From the NCBI GenBank assembly GCA_017538105.1, contig JAFYJN010000079.1:1-48542 (forward strand): DNA of 48,542 nucleotides, read 5' to 3'. Shown in pieces: positions 16,073 to 46,175 of this stretch. The first letter of the stretch is position 1. The number at the start of each line of letters is the position of its first letter. The position numbers were made by a program, and so were the translations under genes. The notes below the pieces were generated by a model. That model saw only the letters and a list, made by a program, of their open reading frames with translations, was not told the origin of the DNA and made no database searches. The DNA is from Prevotella sp. Lineage in GTDB: Bacteria > Bacteroidota > Bacteroidia > Bacteroidales > Bacteroidaceae.

Positions 16073-16131
16073 CTCCCGGCAAACCTCCCCCAGGCAAACC
16101 TCCCCCGCCCCCTCCCAAGGAGGGGGAGAAA
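16073..16131 (+). repeat. GC-rich palindromic element, copy 1 (after ftsI)
   Basis: Two partial copies of a CAAACCTCCCCC word lead into the palindromic core CCCCTCCCAAGGAGGGG (about 16109-16125). The sense orientation follows ftsI. A near-identical copy is embedded in the TPR-CHAT gene at 33120. Confidence 0.8.
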
Positions 16132-29402: not shown

Positions 29403-29461
29403 TGTTCTGTTCTATCAAGACATTTATTCTTCTTCTTTTTTCTTCTTCCCTCTTCCCTCTT

Positions 29462-29495
29462 CTCCCCTCCCTTGGGGAGGGGTCGGGGGTGGGTA
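29462..29495 (-). repeat. GC-rich palindromic element, copy 2 (after recO)
   Basis: Read on the minus strand it starts TACCCACCCCCGACCCCTCC and continues with the complementary CAAGGGAGGGGAG. It abuts the recO stop codon (29496) in sense orientation. It differs from copy 4 at 34034 in only about three of 34 positions. Confidence 0.85.
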
Positions 29496-30778: not shown

Positions 30779-30781
30779 GTA

Positions 30782-30811
30782 ACCCACCCCGGCCCTCCCA
30801 AAGGGAGGGTG
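30782..30811 (+). repeat. GC-rich palindromic element, copy 3 (after rpsT)
   Basis: ACCCACCCCGGCCCTCCCAA followed by AGGGAGGGT. It lies immediately after the rpsT terminator, in sense orientation, and 110 bp before the TPR-CHAT start. Confidence 0.8.
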
Positions 30812-30892
30812 TAAGTAGCTGATGGATGATGGGGGAAAAAAGAATAGAGGTGGAAAAACGGCGTAATGCTTGGTGGATGTCCAAAAAATGGA

Positions 30893-30900
30893 TATATTTG
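30893..30900 (+). promoter_or_regulatory. Predicted -7 box of the TPR-CHAT gene
   Basis: TATATTTG followed by C, 20 bp before the ATG at 30921. A TTGG near 30870 is a weak -33 candidate. Confidence 0.55.
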
Positions 30901-30920
30901 CAAAACCAACCCATCACACC

Positions 30921-33900
30921 ATGAAAAGACTGTTCACGCTTCTCATCATAGTAACGGTTGCCTCCCTGACGACGGTAACCGCCCAGACCGTGGCCCAGAT
31001 GAACGAATGGAGCCAGCGGGCGCAAGAGGCTGAAGACAACAAACAATATGCCGAGGCCATCAGCAATTATGAGATGTACCTCGAAGGCTATGCCAAAAAC
31101 TATTCGCAGGAGGATGACACCTATGCCCTCGTCCTCTTCAAACTCGCCCGTTGCTATTACAACACTGGCAATTATCTCAAAGCTGCTGAGTACGGAGAGA
31201 AGGAAGCCGCCGTCACACTAGCCTTATACGGAAAGAACGACGAGGAATTTGCCACATCGATGCAGAACCTGGGAGTTTATTATGCCCGTCTCGGCGATAA
31301 CACCAAGGCACTCGACTGTGGCCGTGCCTCCGCCGAAGCCTACAAAGCGGCCGTGGGGGAACAACATCCCAAATACGCACAGGCACTCAGCAACCTGGCA
31401 CGATTCCACTCCGAGGTGGGCAACTACAGCGATGCCGTGAGACAGGAGACGATGGCCATGCATATTTTCAAGGCTGCCCCTGGAAACAACAACGAGAGCT
31501 ACCTGACATCGCTGAACAACCTGTCCGTTTACTACTCACAACTCGGCGATGCCACCAAAGCCCTGGAATATGGGATGATGGCTCAGGAGCAGTACCTCTC
31601 GGAGGGACAGACCGACAATGCCGAGTATGCCATGACGCTCGACCACCTGGCCAACTACCACGCGTCGGCAGGCGACTATAGCAAAGCCTCGGAACTGTGC
31701 ATGCAGGCATTGCGAATCCTCCGCAATACCGTAGGCACCGTTCATCCCGACTACGCCACCGTGCTGAGCGATCTGGCCAACAACACCTCGCTGCTGGGCA
31801 ACCAACGCCGAGCCATCGAGATGGGCACACGCGCACTGACCATCCGACAGGACGCATTGGGACGATACCATCCGCTGTGCGCACAGTCGCTGAGCAACCT
31901 GTCGCATTATTTCTCCGCCCTCGGCGACAATGGCAAGGCCGTGGAATATGGCGAACAGGCACTGGCCATCTGGCAGCGGGAGGCCAACGGCATGAACACC
32001 GACTATGCCGCCTGTCTGAGTAACCTGTCGAACTACTATTCGGCTCTCGGCAACACCGACAGAGCCGTGGAATACTGCGTAAGAGCCGCAGAGATACGCA
32101 AGGCCGTGCTCGGTGCCACACATCCCGACTACGCCATGTCGCTCAACAACCTTGCCTCGCTCCTCTTCCGCCACGGTGAATATGAACGGGCCAAAGAGAC
32201 GGGCTCACGAGCCATGATGACCAGCCGCACGAGTCTCGGCGAACACCATCCCAACTACGCCACGGCACTGAGTAACCTCGCCGGCTACCATGCCATGCTC
32301 GGGCATTACGACGAAAGCCTCGACTTCTTCAGCCAGAGCATCAGCATCAGCTACGACAACGTGCTGCAACAGTTCGCCGGACTGACCGCCAAACGGCGGA
32401 CGCTGTTCTGGAACAATATCAGCGACGACTTCACGGTCGTTTACCCCACCTATGTCTTACGGTCGCAGGCCACCACGGCACCCGACCTCTACGACAAGGC
32501 GGCTCTCTTCGCCAAGGGGCTGCTGTTATCTACAGAGATAGAGATGAACCGTCTCATTCAGGAGAGCGGCGACAAGGAGGCCGTGAAGATGTTCGAGAAC
32601 CTGCAACTCAACCGCCTGCAGCTGCAACGGCTCTATGAGACACCCGTAACCCAGCGACAGGTCAACACCGATTCGCTGGCAAGAGCCATCAACAGGATGG
32701 AACGCGACCTCATACGGCGATCGAAGGTTTACGGCGACTTCACCATGAAACTGCGTTCATCATGGAAGGATGTGCAGGGGGCACTGAAGAACGACGAGAT
32801 AGCCGTGGAATTCCTGTCGTTCAATGTCTATGGCACCGACAGCACCATGGTGGTGGCCCTCACCCTGCGCAAGGACGACAAGGAGCCGAAATTCATCCCG
32901 CTCTTCGAGCAGAGACAGCTACAAGGCGTGAGTGACCCCGTGTATTACCACTGTCCCGAGCTCACCCAACTGGTGTGGCAACCTTTGCAACAGGAGCTGA
33001 AAGGGATACACCGCATCTATTTTTCCCCCGCCGGAGCACTCCATAATATAGGTATCGAATATGCGCCTGGCATGGAGGAATATGAGATGTACAGACTGAC
33101 ATCAACGAGGGAGATAGAGACCTCCCCCAGCCCCTCCCAAGGAGGGGAGAAAGGGGCTGTATTATATGGTGGCGTGGATTACAATGCTTCTCTCGCCAGC
33201 AGCCCTCCTTCAGGGGGAATGGGCGAGGTCTCCGAGGAGGCTTTAAATGTATCCTATGACCTCCATCGCGCCTTGATAGACAGTCTGGATGTGCGCGGGT
33301 TCTCCGCCAAATACCTGCCGGGCACACTGAGCGAGGTGGAAGCCATCAAACAGTCCCTTGACAGACAACACCAACTGGCTGTGATGCACACGGGAAAGGA
33401 CGCCACCGAGACATCGGTGAAAGAAGTGAGCGGGCACGCCCCACGTCTCCTCCACCTGGCCACCCACGGATTCTATTTCACCGCGCAACAGGCGAAGGGA
33501 CAGAACAGATTGCGCTTCCTGGGACAGAATGACGCACAGGGCAGTGCCAGACTCGCCACCTCCTCCCTGGGAGGGGGACAGGGAGAGGCTTCTCTGTCCG
33601 AAGACAAAGCGCTCACACGCAGCGGTCTGCTCTTCGCCGGAGCAAACAACGCTCTGGAAGGACAAGTCATGCCGATGGATGCCGACGACGGCATACTCAC
33701 GGCACAGGAAATCTCACGCCTCGACCTGCGCGGCCTCGACCTCGTGGTGCTCTCCGCCTGTAAGACGGGACAGGGTGACATCAACCAAGGCGAGGGTGTC
33801 TTCGGTCTGCAACGTGGCTTCAAGAAAGCGGGTGCCAAGACCATCGTCATGAGTCTGTGGGAAGTGGCTGACGAGGCTACGCAGATTCTCATGACCACGT

Positions 33901-34031
33901 TCTACGACCATCTGCTCTCGGGTCAGTCGAAACGCGAGGCCTTCCGAGGGGCACAGCGTTATCTCCGTGCCATCGACAACGGACGCTTCGACCACCCCGA
34001 GTTCTGGGCCGCCTTCGTGCTGCTAGATTGA
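30921..34031 (+). CDS. Secreted TPR-CHAT domain protein (caspase-like fold)
   Basis: 1036 residues. The start at 30921 gives a signal peptide (MKRLFTLLIIVTVASLTTVT, then AQ). Residues of about 25-480 are kinesin-light-chain-like TPRs of ~42 residues, with repeated HPDYATVLSDLANNTSLLGN-like units. A helical linker follows, and the last ~330 residues form a CHAT domain. The CHAT caspase-type dyad is intact: His849 in HLATHGFYF and Cys947 in VVLSACKTGQGD, followed by GEGVFGLQRGFKKAGA and a C-terminal FWAAFVLLD. CHAT proteins are caspase/separase relatives. Cytoplasmic ones act in defence, but this one carries an export signal. Three in-frame GC-rich palindrome-derived inserts lie at about residues 734, 761 and 880. 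The substrate is unknown. Confidence 0.9.
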   Translation: MKRLFTLLIIVTVASLTTVTAQTVAQMNEWSQRAQEAEDNKQYAEAISNYEMYLEGYAKNYSQEDDTYALVLFKLARCYYNTGNYLKAAEYGEKEAAVTLALYGKNDEEFATSMQNLGVYYARLGDNTKALDCGRASAEAYKAAVGEQHPKYAQALSNLARFHSEVGNYSDAVRQETMAMHIFKAAPGNNNESYLTSLNNLSVYYSQLGDATKALEYGMMAQEQYLSEGQTDNAEYAMTLDHLANYHASAGDYSKASELCMQALRILRNTVGTVHPDYATVLSDLANNTSLLGNQRRAIEMGTRALTIRQDALGRYHPLCAQSLSNLSHYFSALGDNGKAVEYGEQALAIWQREANGMNTDYAACLSNLSNYYSALGNTDRAVEYCVRAAEIRKAVLGATHPDYAMSLNNLASLLFRHGEYERAKETGSRAMMTSRTSLGEHHPNYATALSNLAGYHAMLGHYDESLDFFSQSISISYDNVLQQFAGLTAKRRTLFWNNISDDFTVVYPTYVLRSQATTAPDLYDKAALFAKGLLLSTEIEMNRLIQESGDKEAVKMFENLQLNRLQLQRLYETPVTQRQVNTDSLARAINRMERDLIRRSKVYGDFTMKLRSSWKDVQGALKNDEIAVEFLSFNVYGTDSTMVVALTLRKDDKEPKFIPLFEQRQLQGVSDPVYYHCPELTQLVWQPLQQELKGIHRIYFSPAGALHNIGIEYAPGMEEYEMYRLTSTREIETSPSPSQGGEKGAVLYGGVDYNASLASSPPSGGMGEVSEEALNVSYDLHRALIDSLDVRGFSAKYLPGTLSEVEAIKQSLDRQHQLAVMHTGKDATETSVKEVSGHAPRLLHLATHGFYFTAQQAKGQNRLRFLGQNDAQGSARLATSSLGGGQGEASLSEDKALTRSGLLFAGANNALEGQVMPMDADDGILTAQEISRLDLRGLDLVVLSACKTGQGDINQGEGVFGLQRGFKKAGAKTIVMSLWEVADEATQILMTTFYDHLLSGQSKREAFRGAQRYLRAIDNGRFDHPEFWAAFVLLD
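33120..33157 (+). repeat. Intragenic GC-rich palindromic element a (in CHAT domain)
   Basis: ACCTCCCCCAGCCCCTCCCA continues with AGGAGGGGAGAA. It matches copy 1 at about 16098-16130 with roughly two mismatches and one indel. It is translated in frame as TSPSPSQGGEKG (residue ~734). Confidence 0.85.
33201..33233 (+). repeat. Intragenic GC-rich palindromic element b, degenerate
   Basis: CCCTCCTTCAGGGGG followed by a G-rich tail, translated as SSPPSGGMGEVS (residue ~761). It is less similar to the consensus than copy a, and assignment rests on the CCCTCC/GGGGG arms and the similar peptide. Confidence 0.55.
33558..33591 (+). repeat. Intragenic GC-rich palindromic element c, degenerate
   Basis: CCTCCTCCCTGGGAGGGGG, a palindromic core, translated as TSSLGGGQGEAS (residue ~880), between the catalytic His and Cys of the CHAT domain. 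Confidence 0.6.
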
Positions 34032-34032
34032 A

Positions 34033-34070
34033 TACCCACCCCCGGCCCCTCCCAAAGGGAGGGGAGGGGT
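34033..34070 (+). repeat. GC-rich palindromic element, copy 4 (after TPR-CHAT)
   Basis: ATACCCACCCCCGGCCCCTC followed by CCAAAGGGAGGGGAGGGGT. It begins 1-2 bp after the TPR-CHAT stop codon, in sense orientation. Confidence 0.85.
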
Positions 34071-41933: not shown

Positions 41934-42814
41934 ATGAGAAAAAACTAACAAACGCCACGGTGGCGTTGGCCAAACAAGAATTAGAGGGTGGTCATTACAT
42001 TGACGACGACCTGATACTTTTCGATCGTTTCGAGGACGTGCCATTACCTATGGAGCCCCGTCGCCTCAACTGTCTATTTGTGGCCTTGTGCCTGGAAGGA
42101 ACAGCCGAATACACGGTCGACACGCTGGAATATCAAGCTGGGAAGAACGATGTCATCCTTATCAATGCCGGCCACGTTACCAACAACTATTCTCTCAGTA
42201 GCGACTGCCGTGGAATAGCCATGATGTGTTCGAACAGTTTTTTCCAAGAAATCGTTATGGAGATTCATGAAATCTCTTCCCTCTTCCTTTTTGCCCAGTC
42301 ACACCCCGTTTTCCATATCAAGGAAGAGACGGCACAGACCTTCGTTGAATATTTCAACCTGATACAACAGAAGGTGAAAGACGACTCACACCGGTTCCGC
42401 AAGGAATTGGTCAGCGTATTGCTCAAAGGTATGCTTTACGATATCGGCAATGAGATATATCAGCTACAGTTGAACACCACCAACAAGCAGACACGTGCGG
42501 AAAAGATTTTCTATGATTTCATATTGTTGCTACAGGACCATTTCCGCCATGAGCGTAGGGTAAACTGGTATGCCCGTCAACTGGCCATCACGCCCAAGTA
42601 TCTCAGCGAATCAGTGAAACAGGTAAGTATGCGCCCCCCCAACGACTGGATTGACAGATATGTTGTCATGGAGATGCGAGTGCTTCTGAAAAATTCCACA
42701 CTCAGCATCAAAGAGATAGCCCAGGAACTGCATTTCCCCAACCAGTCGTTCCTCGGCAAATATTTCAAGGAACACGTTGGCATGTCACCGTTGAAGTACA
42801 GGAAAGGGGGATGA
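41930..42814 (+). CDS. AraC-family transcriptional regulator
   Basis: 294 residues. The N-terminal half is a cupin-like sensing domain (PRRLNCLFVALCLEGTAEYT, then YQAGKNDVILINAGHV). The C-terminal ~100 residues hold two HTH motifs (WYARQLAITPKYLSESVKQV and LSIKEIAQELHFPNQSFLGK), ending HVGMSPLKYRKG, the AraC/XylS signature. Its ATG overlaps the GH95 stop (ATGA), so it is translationally coupled to the enzyme. An enzyme-regulator operon of this kind suggests feedback control of the GH95 unit or of a remote glycan locus (inference). Confidence 0.92.
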   Translation: MNEKKLTNATVALAKQELEGGHYIDDDLILFDRFEDVPLPMEPRRLNCLFVALCLEGTAEYTVDTLEYQAGKNDVILINAGHVTNNYSLSSDCRGIAMMCSNSFFQEIVMEIHEISSLFLFAQSHPVFHIKEETAQTFVEYFNLIQQKVKDDSHRFRKELVSVLLKGMLYDIGNEIYQLQLNTTNKQTRAEKIFYDFILLLQDHFRHERRVNWYARQLAITPKYLSESVKQVSMRPPNDWIDRYVVMEMRVLLKNSTLSIKEIAQELHFPNQSFLGKYFKEHVGMSPLKYRKGG

Positions 42815-42878
42815 ATGGTGAGTGGTGAGTGGTGAATGGTGAGTGGTGAATGGTGAGTGGTGAATGGTGAGTGGTGAA
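42813..42878. repeat. Tandem 14-bp repeat after the AraC gene
   Basis: The unit GAATGGTGAGTGGT occurs four times (42813, 42834, 42848, 42862), with one extra half unit after the first. It begins inside the araC stop codon. Confidence 0.9.
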
Positions 42879-43016
42879 TTATCGCTGACGCGATTATGAA
42901 TGACGAATTACAATTACGAATTCTTCATTGTTAAATCGTAATCGCGAAGCGACCATTCATAATTCAAAATTCAAAATTCAACATTCAACACTCAACACTC
43001 AAAATTCCCAATTCCT
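42875..43016. repeat. AT-rich dispersed repeat with ~92-bp imperfect palindrome
   Basis: A palindrome with ends TGAATTAT and ATAATTCA spans 42875-42966. Inner arms TCGCTGACGCGATTA and TAATCGCGAAGCGA pair with one gap. It continues as ATTCAAAATTCAAAATTCAA and CAACACTCAACACTC words running into the DUF3109 3' end. A related element lies upstream of gpmI in inverted orientation. Confidence 0.75.
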
Positions 43017-43581
43017 CAAGCTTTTTATACCATGCTTCGCCAAATCGGCGGATGAGCGGTTCCTTGAGAAACTGGTAAATGCGGATGTTTTTCTTTCTGC
43101 CTAATGTCACGGCATCCTGACAGATGGCCCATCGATGGTAGTTCAGGCCCACCATGCCATTGGAAAAGCGTTTCTCGCGAATGGGATAGAGCGAGCAACT
43201 GATGGGTTTGCACCAATGCGTCTTCCCCTCACGGAATACTTTTTCCAAAGCACAGAGGCAACAGCCCTCTTCGTGGCACGTAAACACACAGTCTTTATTC
43301 CCAACGATGCTTGTCACCAAATCGCCATCGCGGTCGGTATAAACCACCCCCTGTCGGTCAATCACCGACTGTGCCTCAGCCGCGAGGTGCGGCCAAGCCT
43401 CATCGAGAGCCTTCTCAAGCTCGTCCACCTCTTCGAGGGTCACCGGCGCCCCCGCATCGCCCTCCACACAACATGCGCCATGGCAACTGTCGAGGTCGCA
43501 GCAGAAAAATTCAGTCAGGATGTCGGACGAAAGCAATACGTCGTCCACCTGCAAAATCGGAAGAACTCGTTGTTTGTCCAT
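42985..43581 (-). CDS. DUF3109 family cysteine-rich protein
   Basis: 198 residues. The family is recognised from FFCCDLDSCHGACCVEGDAG, VFTCHEEGCCLCALEKVFRE and KPISCSLYPIRE. The Cys clusters (CCxxxxCxxxCC, CxxxxCCLC) suggest a metal or Fe-S centre; the function is unknown. The gene starts 3 bp after ung and is surely co-transcribed with it. The last ~9 codons (LGILSVEC) and the stop codon are read from the AT-rich dispersed repeat, so the natural C-terminus may have been replaced when the repeat inserted. Confidence 0.9.
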   Translation of the reverse strand: MDKQRVLPILQVDDVLLSSDILTEFFCCDLDSCHGACCVEGDAGAPVTLEEVDELEKALDEAWPHLAAEAQSVIDRQGVVYTDRDGDLVTSIVGNKDCVFTCHEEGCCLCALEKVFREGKTHWCKPISCSLYPIREKRFSNGMVGLNYHRWAICQDAVTLGRKKNIRIYQFLKEPLIRRFGEAWYKKLEELGILSVEC

Positions 43582-44261: not shown

Positions 44262-44417
44262 AGATAAGAAGTTTAGGAATTAAGGAGTTTAGGAGTTTGG
44301 GAGTTTGGACAATTCCCCCTGGCATTTCTCTCACCTCTCACCCCTCACCCCTTCCATCCCCCTCCCTTTGGGAGGGCTGGGGTGGGTGTCCCCTTGGGAG
44401 GGCTGGGGTGGGTGCTT
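44262..44417 (-). repeat. gpmI-ung spacer with GC-rich palindromic element, copy 5
   Basis: On the minus strand the element follows the gpmI stop (44426) in sense orientation. The 21-bp block CACCCACCCCAGCCCTCCCA+A is present twice (44368-44388 and 44394-44414 on plus, period 26), and the inner copy is completed by AGGGAGGGGG. Downstream are CACCCCTCACC words and the GGAGTTTAGG-type repeat (44278-44306) shared with the murE-mraY gap. Confidence 0.8.
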
Positions 44418-45946: not shown

Positions 45947-46175
45947 ATTATTTGAGTTTGTAAGTTTTTGAGTTTGTGAGTTTTTTAGAATTTGAAATTT
46001 GGAATGTTGAATGTTGACGAGTTGTTGAGACATATGTCGAAAAATTGTCGCTTCGCGATGAAGAATTATTGAATGTGGAATGATTATTCGTCATTATTTT
46101 TCCTGAATCGCATGAGCGACCATTCGTCATTCGTAACTCCGTCATTCGTTATTCATCATTCCTTATTCTTTTTCG
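45947..46175. repeat. AT-rich dispersed repeats upstream of gpmI
   Basis: Two copies of TTTGAGTTTGTRAGTTTTT are followed by GAATTTGAAATTTGGAATG words and a hairpin with arms GTCGCTTCGCGAT (46047-46059) and ATCGCATGAGCGAC (46107-46120). CATTCGTCATTCG words close the element. It is the inverted relative of the repeat at 42875-43016. Confidence 0.7.

Follow-up and report, generated by a model that had tools for sequence, protein, structure and literature searches.

The DNA analysed here is a 48,542-nucleotide stretch of a Prevotella sp. genome (contig JAFYJN010000079.1; hereafter the window), in which a gene for a predicted protease contains short GC-rich palindromes that resemble repeats lying between genes elsewhere in the same DNA. 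This raises the question of how a dispersed, apparently non-coding element came to be protein sequence, and what may have carried it there. In the following, G000 is the genome that holds the window, G019, G143 and other G-numbers are relatives from the same genus, and L- and C-numbers denote loci and contigs, respectively. The G000 assembly has 3.6 Mb in 102 contigs, with an estimated contamination of 5.5%.

Palindromic Elements Within the TPR-CHAT Gene

The gene in question encodes TPR repeats and a CHAT domain (Pfam PF12770, E = 3e-57), and its product is a predicted protease. The sequence after its likely start codon appeared signal-peptide-like by eye, and the CHAT part had no match in the PDB. 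The gene and the element copies of the window are as follows.

30870..34031, + strand, TPR-CHAT gene (open reading frame from TTG 30870; likely start ATG 30921)
33120..33157, + strand, site 1, kind B element in frame (ETSPSPSQGGEKG; read as TSPSPSQGGEK)
33201..33233, − strand, site 2, degenerate reverse-oriented element (SPPSGGMGEV)
33558..33598, − strand, site 3, reverse-oriented element (TSSLGGGQGEAS), missing in L058 and several paralogues
30779..30815, + strand, kind A copy, intergenic, upstream of the CHAT gene
34033..34069, + strand, kind A copy, intergenic, directly past the CHAT stop codon
16095..16131, + strand, kind B copy, intergenic, after the ftsI reading frame (named as in the initial annotation), nearest window relative of site 1
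29459..29495, − strand, kind A copy, intergenic
44354..44390, − strand, kind A copy, intergenic, best match of the element model
44389..44414, partial second copy beside the preceding one

The coding palindromes of the CHAT gene are real. An initial annotation of the window had described 33120-33157 as nearly identical to the palindrome at 16098-16130 and as translated in frame, and both statements held: identity is 93% over 28 nt (33120-33147 versus 16098-16125), followed by one indel, and the frame is open with the peptide that had been given. The relatives it had reported at 33201 and 33558 are also genuine, to which we add that their orientation is opposite, the minus strand carrying the C-rich arm. 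The nhmmer profile did not detect the copy at 33201, which is too degenerate, and this element is better kept in paralogues (GTPPLEGTGEAS). Copies flank the gene on both sides, as had been claimed, so that five lie within 3.3 kb. The residues that had been numbered His849 and Cys947 are preserved; counted from the TTG they are His866 (in LATHGF) and Cys964 (in SACKTG), the offset of 17 being the difference between the TTG and ATG 30921. We take them to be the putative catalytic pair of the CHAT protease.

At site 1, the span from RL to DY has 30 residues in the window protein and 28 in the element-free homologue of G028. The site 1 loop is therefore barely longer than in distant element-free homologues, which indicates that its residues were lost or largely replaced by the element. 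Site 3 measures 105 nt in the window compared to 60 nt in element-free paralogues, a gain of 45 nt.

Sequence, Kinds and Copy Number of the Element

The element is about 33 nt long and consists of a C-rich tail, ACC(C/T)(A/C)CCCC, two to three variable bases, and a CCCTCCC-loop-GGGAGGG hairpin. It is REP-like in being a short palindrome of high copy number that lies mostly between genes. A covariance model of 37 positions, built from 22 copies, had at least 159 matches in G000 (E up to 1, with all listed matches below 0.005; 150 of 1318 first-look candidates were scored). At E 0.001 the model matched 151 places in G019, 124 in G143, 16 in G028 and 10 in G059, and none in G148 or G049. Two sets of deduplicated copies were used. 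The first has 171 copies from 419 kb of G000 DNA that had been picked for matches and is thus a non-random sample; the second, made with a stricter E-value and looser merging, has 179 copies, and duplicates are possible among its 170 non-CHAT copies.

Kind A, ACCCACCCC-NN-CCCTCCC-nAA-GGGAGGG, predominates outside the CHAT loci, its tail being present in 146 of the 170 non-CHAT G000 copies. The tail of kind B (ACCTCCCCC-NN-CCCCTCC-CAA-GGAGGGG) was found in only 9 of these 170, compared to six of nine profile matches at CHAT loci. Pattern matches to kind D (loop TTTGGAAAA) numbered 90 in G143, 10 in G019 and three in G000, with none in three other genomes. The window also contains a 14-nt tandem repeat (TGAATGGTGAGTGG; 42812-42884) and AT-rich inverted repeats separated by about 3 kb (42932-43018 and 45977-46168), which belong to another repeat family.

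Two properties of the element bear on its presence in genes. No blocked frame was found in any of the six in 128 of the 170 non-CHAT G000 copies, compared to 13.8% of random 33-mers from the window. The mean number of blocked frames was 0.34 in element copies and 0.89 in shuffled copies, and as the latter are also fairly open, composition accounts for a good part of this openness. The second property is a short-loop G-quadruplex motif on the G-rich strand, present in 145 of the 170 copies versus 0.1% of shuffles. The palindromes could accordingly be selected RNA or transcription signals, with the copies inside genes being regulatory and translated by accident, and several intergenic copies of the window do lie just past gene ends. 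However, the motif fits only two of the nine CHAT copies of G000, and CHAT copies are found in either orientation and differ from one orthologue to another. We regard this explanation as highly unlikely.

Variation of the Three Sites Among CHAT Genes

TPR-CHAT genes are multi-copy in some genomes of the genus, with five each in G000, G019 and G143 (two of them adjacent in G143 contig C40) and several in G148 (L016 and L053-L056); 90 of 150 genus genomes had no match. A search of a contig collection for CHAT relatives returned three loci only. We compared the sites in 16 sequences, that is, the five copies each from G000, G019 and G143 together with L058, an orthologue of 78% identity.

Site 1 was occupied in 13 of the 16, by one to three copies of kinds A, B or C or of a variant of A. 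In the window gene and its G019 orthologue, B is the only element; it follows A in L041, L044 and L046, is accompanied by a truncated A in L039, and is degenerate in L040. In G143, A is joined by kind C in L048, L050 and L051 (with an extra partial copy in L048), and the remaining occupied copies have A alone or two copies of the A variant. L058 has A and a degenerate second element, and L042, L045 and L047 have none. Site 3 was full in six sequences, partial in two and empty in eight, L058 among the latter. The prediction that the inserts should be variable or absent in relatives was thus borne out, in that their presence, number and kind differ between orthologues and paralogues. The accompanying expectation of perfectly matching flanks was not, because the relatives have diverged. 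The window's site 1 insert is 97–100% identical in five relatives, and the flanks of these, taken as about 110 codons upstream, show 98% identity in the G019 orthologue and 74–78% in four paralogues. For L040 the insert is 83% and the flank 76% identical to the window.

The element-bearing copies agree in frame and orientation at each site, which argues that the sites are old. At one of the sites, element kind differs by lineage. In the second slot of site 1, as we define it, kind B is found in all seven element-bearing copies of G000 and G019 (one of them degenerate) and in none of five from G143. A CHAT tree computed without the loops groups the genes otherwise: the G143 copies are split among three groups that also contain G000 and G019 copies (supports of 73, 86 and 88, the 73 being that of the window group with L048), and links between groups are weaker. 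Element kind therefore follows the genome, through conversion between copies or through new insertion. Kind D is a possible source of the G143 kind C, although its intergenic copies are not identical to kind C, and one exact core match was found outside the CHAT genes, in G143 contig C22.

These data can be compared with a single ancestral insertion into the CHAT gene, after which gene conversion alone, and no recent mobility, produced the identity between paralogues. That all element-bearing paralogues share sites, frame and orientation favors this history, as does the high identity seen by eye immediately downstream of site 1 in several of these paralogues. It fits less well that the window gene and L058, which form a clade with a support of 87, differ at site 1 and that site 3 of L058 is empty, or that the second slot in G143 holds kind C and the A variant. 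We therefore think it somewhat unlikely that one insertion explains the sites, but it is compatible with our preferred explanation, given below, for part of their history.

It could also be argued that the loops are convergent, low-complexity Ser/Pro/Gly surface loops that drifted to resemble the palindrome by composition only, and in support of this the loops of CHAT homologues are generally variable in length and site 2 of the window is degenerate. A core search of the window with up to three mismatches nevertheless gave six matches (two of them representing one overlapping copy) compared to 0.01 expected from dinucleotide shuffles. When the site 1 peptide was re-encoded with the codon usage of the window, at most two differences from the intergenic copy, as in the observed 26/28 identity, arose in 3.5e-5 of draws. 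The shuffles and the synonymous-choice test led us to reject chance or composition. Additionally, the hairpin is retained in many coding copies (by eye), element kinds follow the genome, and none of 28 distant CHAT homologues from the genus, 27 of which have residues at sites 1 and 2, was seen by eye to have the loop peptides. The outcome that would have counted against the initial annotation, the same loops in element-free orthologues, was therefore not encountered. Convergence is extremely improbable, and the annotation's proposal that a dispersed non-coding element turned into protein sequence is supported by identity, site variation and the synonymous-choice test. G053, G086 and G023 have many element matches, yet their CHAT homologues are without loop elements, which counts against the explanation that we propose below.

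Element Copies in Other Genes

Thirty of the 171 G000 copies were candidates for lying in long open reading frames, and we judged 13 of these frames credible; the other 17 copies were upstream, antisense or in spurious frames. Nine of the 13 are in four CHAT genes, two in the linker of a DUF559-ArgB reading frame, one in a CcsA/ResB cytochrome biogenesis gene and one in a tandem-element tail after a THUMP-like frame. The expectation that the element would be found inside other reading frames was thus confirmed by the CcsA/ResB gene and the DUF559-ArgB linker. A codon-score filter for coding copies was discarded as too strict, as it missed known CHAT copies.

The CcsA/ResB insert is present in two of 13 aligned sequences, those of G000 and G019 (the latter locus flagged with one stop), is absent from the other 11, and sits between apparent transmembrane segments. 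The THUMP-like frame (L085:1443-2822, − strand) ends in about 55 residues from four tandem elements, by eye; this end may be a run-on tail.

DUF559 Genes Are Often Flanked by Palindromes

REP elements in other bacteria are associated with RAYT transposases, and we looked for such a partner in G000. No match to PF01797 (Y1_Tnp) was found there, although five of 14 control genomes were matched; a RAYT is therefore not at hand as a partner in G000 and was ruled out. The DUF559-ArgB reading frame with elements in its linker pointed instead to DUF559 (PF04480) as a candidate. This family scored above the Pfam cut-off in 87 of 150 genus genomes, and in 28 of 28 reading frames scanned.

We analyzed 46 distinct DUF559 loci of the genus, namely 26 of the 30 best-scoring (four duplicates were dropped) and 20 picked by hand, chiefly from element-rich or complete genomes. 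A strict test required similar palindromes in inverted order on both sides, within 600 nt and with a score of at least 19. It was passed by 34 of the 46 loci (19/26 best-scoring and 15/20 hand-picked) and missed by 12. Controls passed rarely: none of 101 random intervals, none of 216 intervals in G000 element-bearing loci, and five of 336 ATG reading frames from those loci and the window. The tails of the 34 inverted pairs point outward in 17 and inward in two, with no clear direction in 15. The density of GC-rich hairpins was 5.05 per kb up to 150 nt from the DUF559 domain, fell to 1.68 between 150 and 300 nt, and was 0.07–0.44 past 300 nt. Hairpins were two-sided at 35 of the 46 loci and at five of 140 control reading frames, the controls being drawn from the window and distant CHAT loci rather than from DUF559 genomes at large. 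As the loci come from related species, 20 were chosen, and some fusions are inherited, these counts are not of independent events.

Phylum-wide, seven of the 30 best loci passed the strict test (23 missed it) and eight the hairpin test, which indicates a weaker or more decayed association at this level. Of ten plasmid-collection records, from 36 that matched DUF559, three passed the strict and four the hairpin test.

Individual units connect DUF559 to the elements of the CHAT genes. In G143, the end palindromes of a DUF559-RNase H unit match site 3 of L050, a CHAT gene of the same genome, over 32/33 and 32/34 nt. The genome's other DUF559 gene has kind D flanks, so that the two bear different palindrome kinds (B and D). 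The DUF559-ArgB units of G000 and G019 have kind A palindromes, the G000 unit scoring only 15 in the strict test, and the palindrome flanking the second DUF559 gene of G000 (contig C60) differs from the CHAT elements.

Alternatively, DUF559 may be a passenger that settles in or near palindrome clusters, for example by homing or repeat-mediated recombination, while the palindromes spread otherwise, by replication slippage, a lost RAYT or recombination. In a tally of 150 genomes (up to 44 candidates scored per genome, making the element counts minimal, and kinship uncorrected), 66 had both, 14 the element only, 21 DUF559 only and 49 neither. The genomes with one and not the other are in keeping with a passenger, as are DUF559 genes without flanking palindromes and the presence in G000 of just two DUF559 genes against its many element matches. 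A passenger does not readily account for inverted palindromes at both ends, with tails more often outward than inward, for the distinct kinds at the two genes of G143, or for DUF559 being present in 22 of the 23 genomes with at least 20 element matches. We consider this alternative unlikely. DUF559 and the palindromes are strongly associated, and the association is compatible with dependence in either direction.

DUF559 in Frame with Host Proteins

In 17 of the 46 genus loci, DUF559 shares a reading frame with a host protein. The partners are IspF (4), RNase H (4), guanylate kinase (4), an ArgB-type kinase (2) and a SpoU/TrmH-type methylase (1), and DUF559 is internal to an ABC-F-like ATPase (1) and an AAA helicase (1). 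In each of the 15 N-terminal fusions the linker contains a GC-rich hairpin, and no ATG lies between this hairpin and the host domain. A GTG or TTG is present there in six of the 15, and the host protein could therefore start separately in these. Because fusions recur in related genomes, the 15 reading frames do not equal 15 events. One IspF fusion (L295:892-1941, − strand) seems to hold an extra element within its IspF part (RRPSQPGGEGGG before LLGHSDADV), besides that in the DUF559 linker.

Elsewhere in the phylum, DUF559 shares a reading frame with LeuRS, MetH and HsdR (two genomes each) and also with a type ISP enzyme, other DNA methylases and a GATase. Individual cases, including two DUF559-ArgB frames from the genus, are as follows.

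L350:526-3312, + strand, DUF559 in frame in the LeuRS editing domain (another genome of the phylum)
L353:1-2775, − strand, DUF559 in frame in the LeuRS editing domain (a second genome of the phylum)
L370:1-3327, + strand, DUF559 between the two cobalamin-binding parts of MetH, with a palindrome at each border
L376:1-3321, − strand, DUF559 between the two cobalamin-binding parts of MetH, with a palindrome at each border
L314:1315-2577 (G000, C49), DUF559-ArgB reading frame joined via several palindromes
L318:1589-2899 (G019, C25), DUF559-ArgB reading frame joined via several palindromes

In L350, residues 301-460 occupy the place of three residues in the Thermus LeuRS, and in L370, a stretch of 164 residues stands where a methionine synthase of solved structure has 19. 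Palindromes were found at both borders in three of the four LeuRS and MetH cases. Among ten internal cases, with stems judged, GC-rich hairpins were at both borders in seven, at one in two and at neither in L350. The DUF559-ArgB frames of G000 and G019 differ in element number with the frame kept; their linker has no ATG, and GTG codons within the elements could act as starts. No self-splicing (Hint) family was present among the Pfam matches (E ≤ 1e-5) of 28 DUF559 reading frames.

A Proposed Origin of the CHAT Loops

The explanation that we find best supported, and consider probable, is that solo copies of REP-like palindromes, whose likely partner is DUF559, make up the CHAT loops. A DUF559 nuclease, of the Vsr-like PD-(D/E)XK kind, would cut or nick at or near target DNA, and either a palindrome-nuclease-palindrome unit or a single palindrome would be copied into the break. 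Events that survived would be those in frame in tolerant loops, or those fused to genes indispensable to the host. After entering the CHAT gene as solo copies, REP-like palindromes would have persisted there, since they can be read through in most frames and translate into short, hydrophilic Ser/Pro/Gly loops. The sites would be old, with their content renewed by gene conversion, from paralogues or genomic copies, or by fresh insertion. We infer mobility, of both the palindromes and the DUF559 units, from these patterns.

We also propose, tentatively and as an idea that could well be wrong, that DUF559 together with its palindromes is a selfish element of a new class, residing in frame and without splicing in housekeeping genes. 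Its targets would be the loops or starts of leuS, metH, gmk, ispF, argB, rnhA and a trmH relative. Such an element would be a nuclease bracketed by stop-poor palindromes that persists by fusion to indispensable genes, and the scattered single palindromes, including the CHAT loops, would be its non-autonomous derivatives.

For the spread of REP-like palindromes where there is no RAYT, DUF559 is a concrete candidate partner, and one that is present in Escherichia coli K-12 (ycjD). In the CHAT family, a dispersed repeat rewrites coding sequence, and its kind tracks the genome and not the gene. If the bracketed in-frame endonuclease is indeed mobile, then selfish DNA is living in essential proteins without splicing, and the spread of palindromes into proteins by this means would be a route not described before. 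In the accessible parts of the open-licence literature we found no link between DUF559 and palindromic repeats; subscription papers lie outside this coverage, and priority for the partnership is therefore not proven.

Comparison with Known Systems

RAYT genes have REPs on both sides, in inverted orientation. In the REP/RAYT systems (TnpA-REP, REPtrons) the bracketed gene is a Y1 transposase, whereas here it is a PD-(D/E)XK DUF559 gene that often shares its frame with a host protein. Neither of the REP tags GTAG and CGTC was seen by eye at the ends of the element, whose copies begin ACC(C/T)(A/C)CCCC. REP elements are described as high-copy palindromes of 20–40 nt, some of them inside open reading frames (PMC3733652, PMC8266576, PMC2817692), and the accessible part of a REP survey mentions neither a DUF nor a transposase (PMC12306157). 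As for the nuclease, a DUF559 protein is described as Vsr-like (PMC12907096) and YcjD as a PD-(D/E)XK member (PMC1189080).

In E. coli KE47, three elements of the same layout follow ycjD, by eye. The ycjD-fabI gap of MG1655 (L388:6041-6761) also has three by eye, two of them degenerate, and the pattern finds one. Of 5,426 E. coli genomes, 5,353 and 5,375 were matched by queries from the ycjD gap, with respective medians of 18 and 17 places per genome. We take these repeats to be the boxC family. The E. coli arrangement differs in that the elements are on one side of the gene only; the strict test gave no inverted pair for ycjD of KE47, which was set aside as a case of that kind.

That REPs and Rickettsia palindromic elements can lie in frame inside open reading frames is already established, the latter being dispersed short palindromes in frames that likely encode functional proteins (PMC3733652). 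The parallel with Rickettsia that the initial annotation drew is one of the mode of in-frame insertion. A further likeness is the existence of relatives without the insert, here for the CHAT sites and CcsA/ResB. The host phylum differs, however, and here there is a candidate partner nuclease bracketed by palindromes and a single paralogous family with three fixed loops and turnover of element kind.

Inteins and homing endonucleases also place an endonuclease domain in frame in conserved, often essential proteins, where its loss would be costly. The DUF559 insertions differ from inteins in showing no splicing domain among the Pfam matches of the 28 reading frames and in having, as their borders, palindromes that encode linkers.
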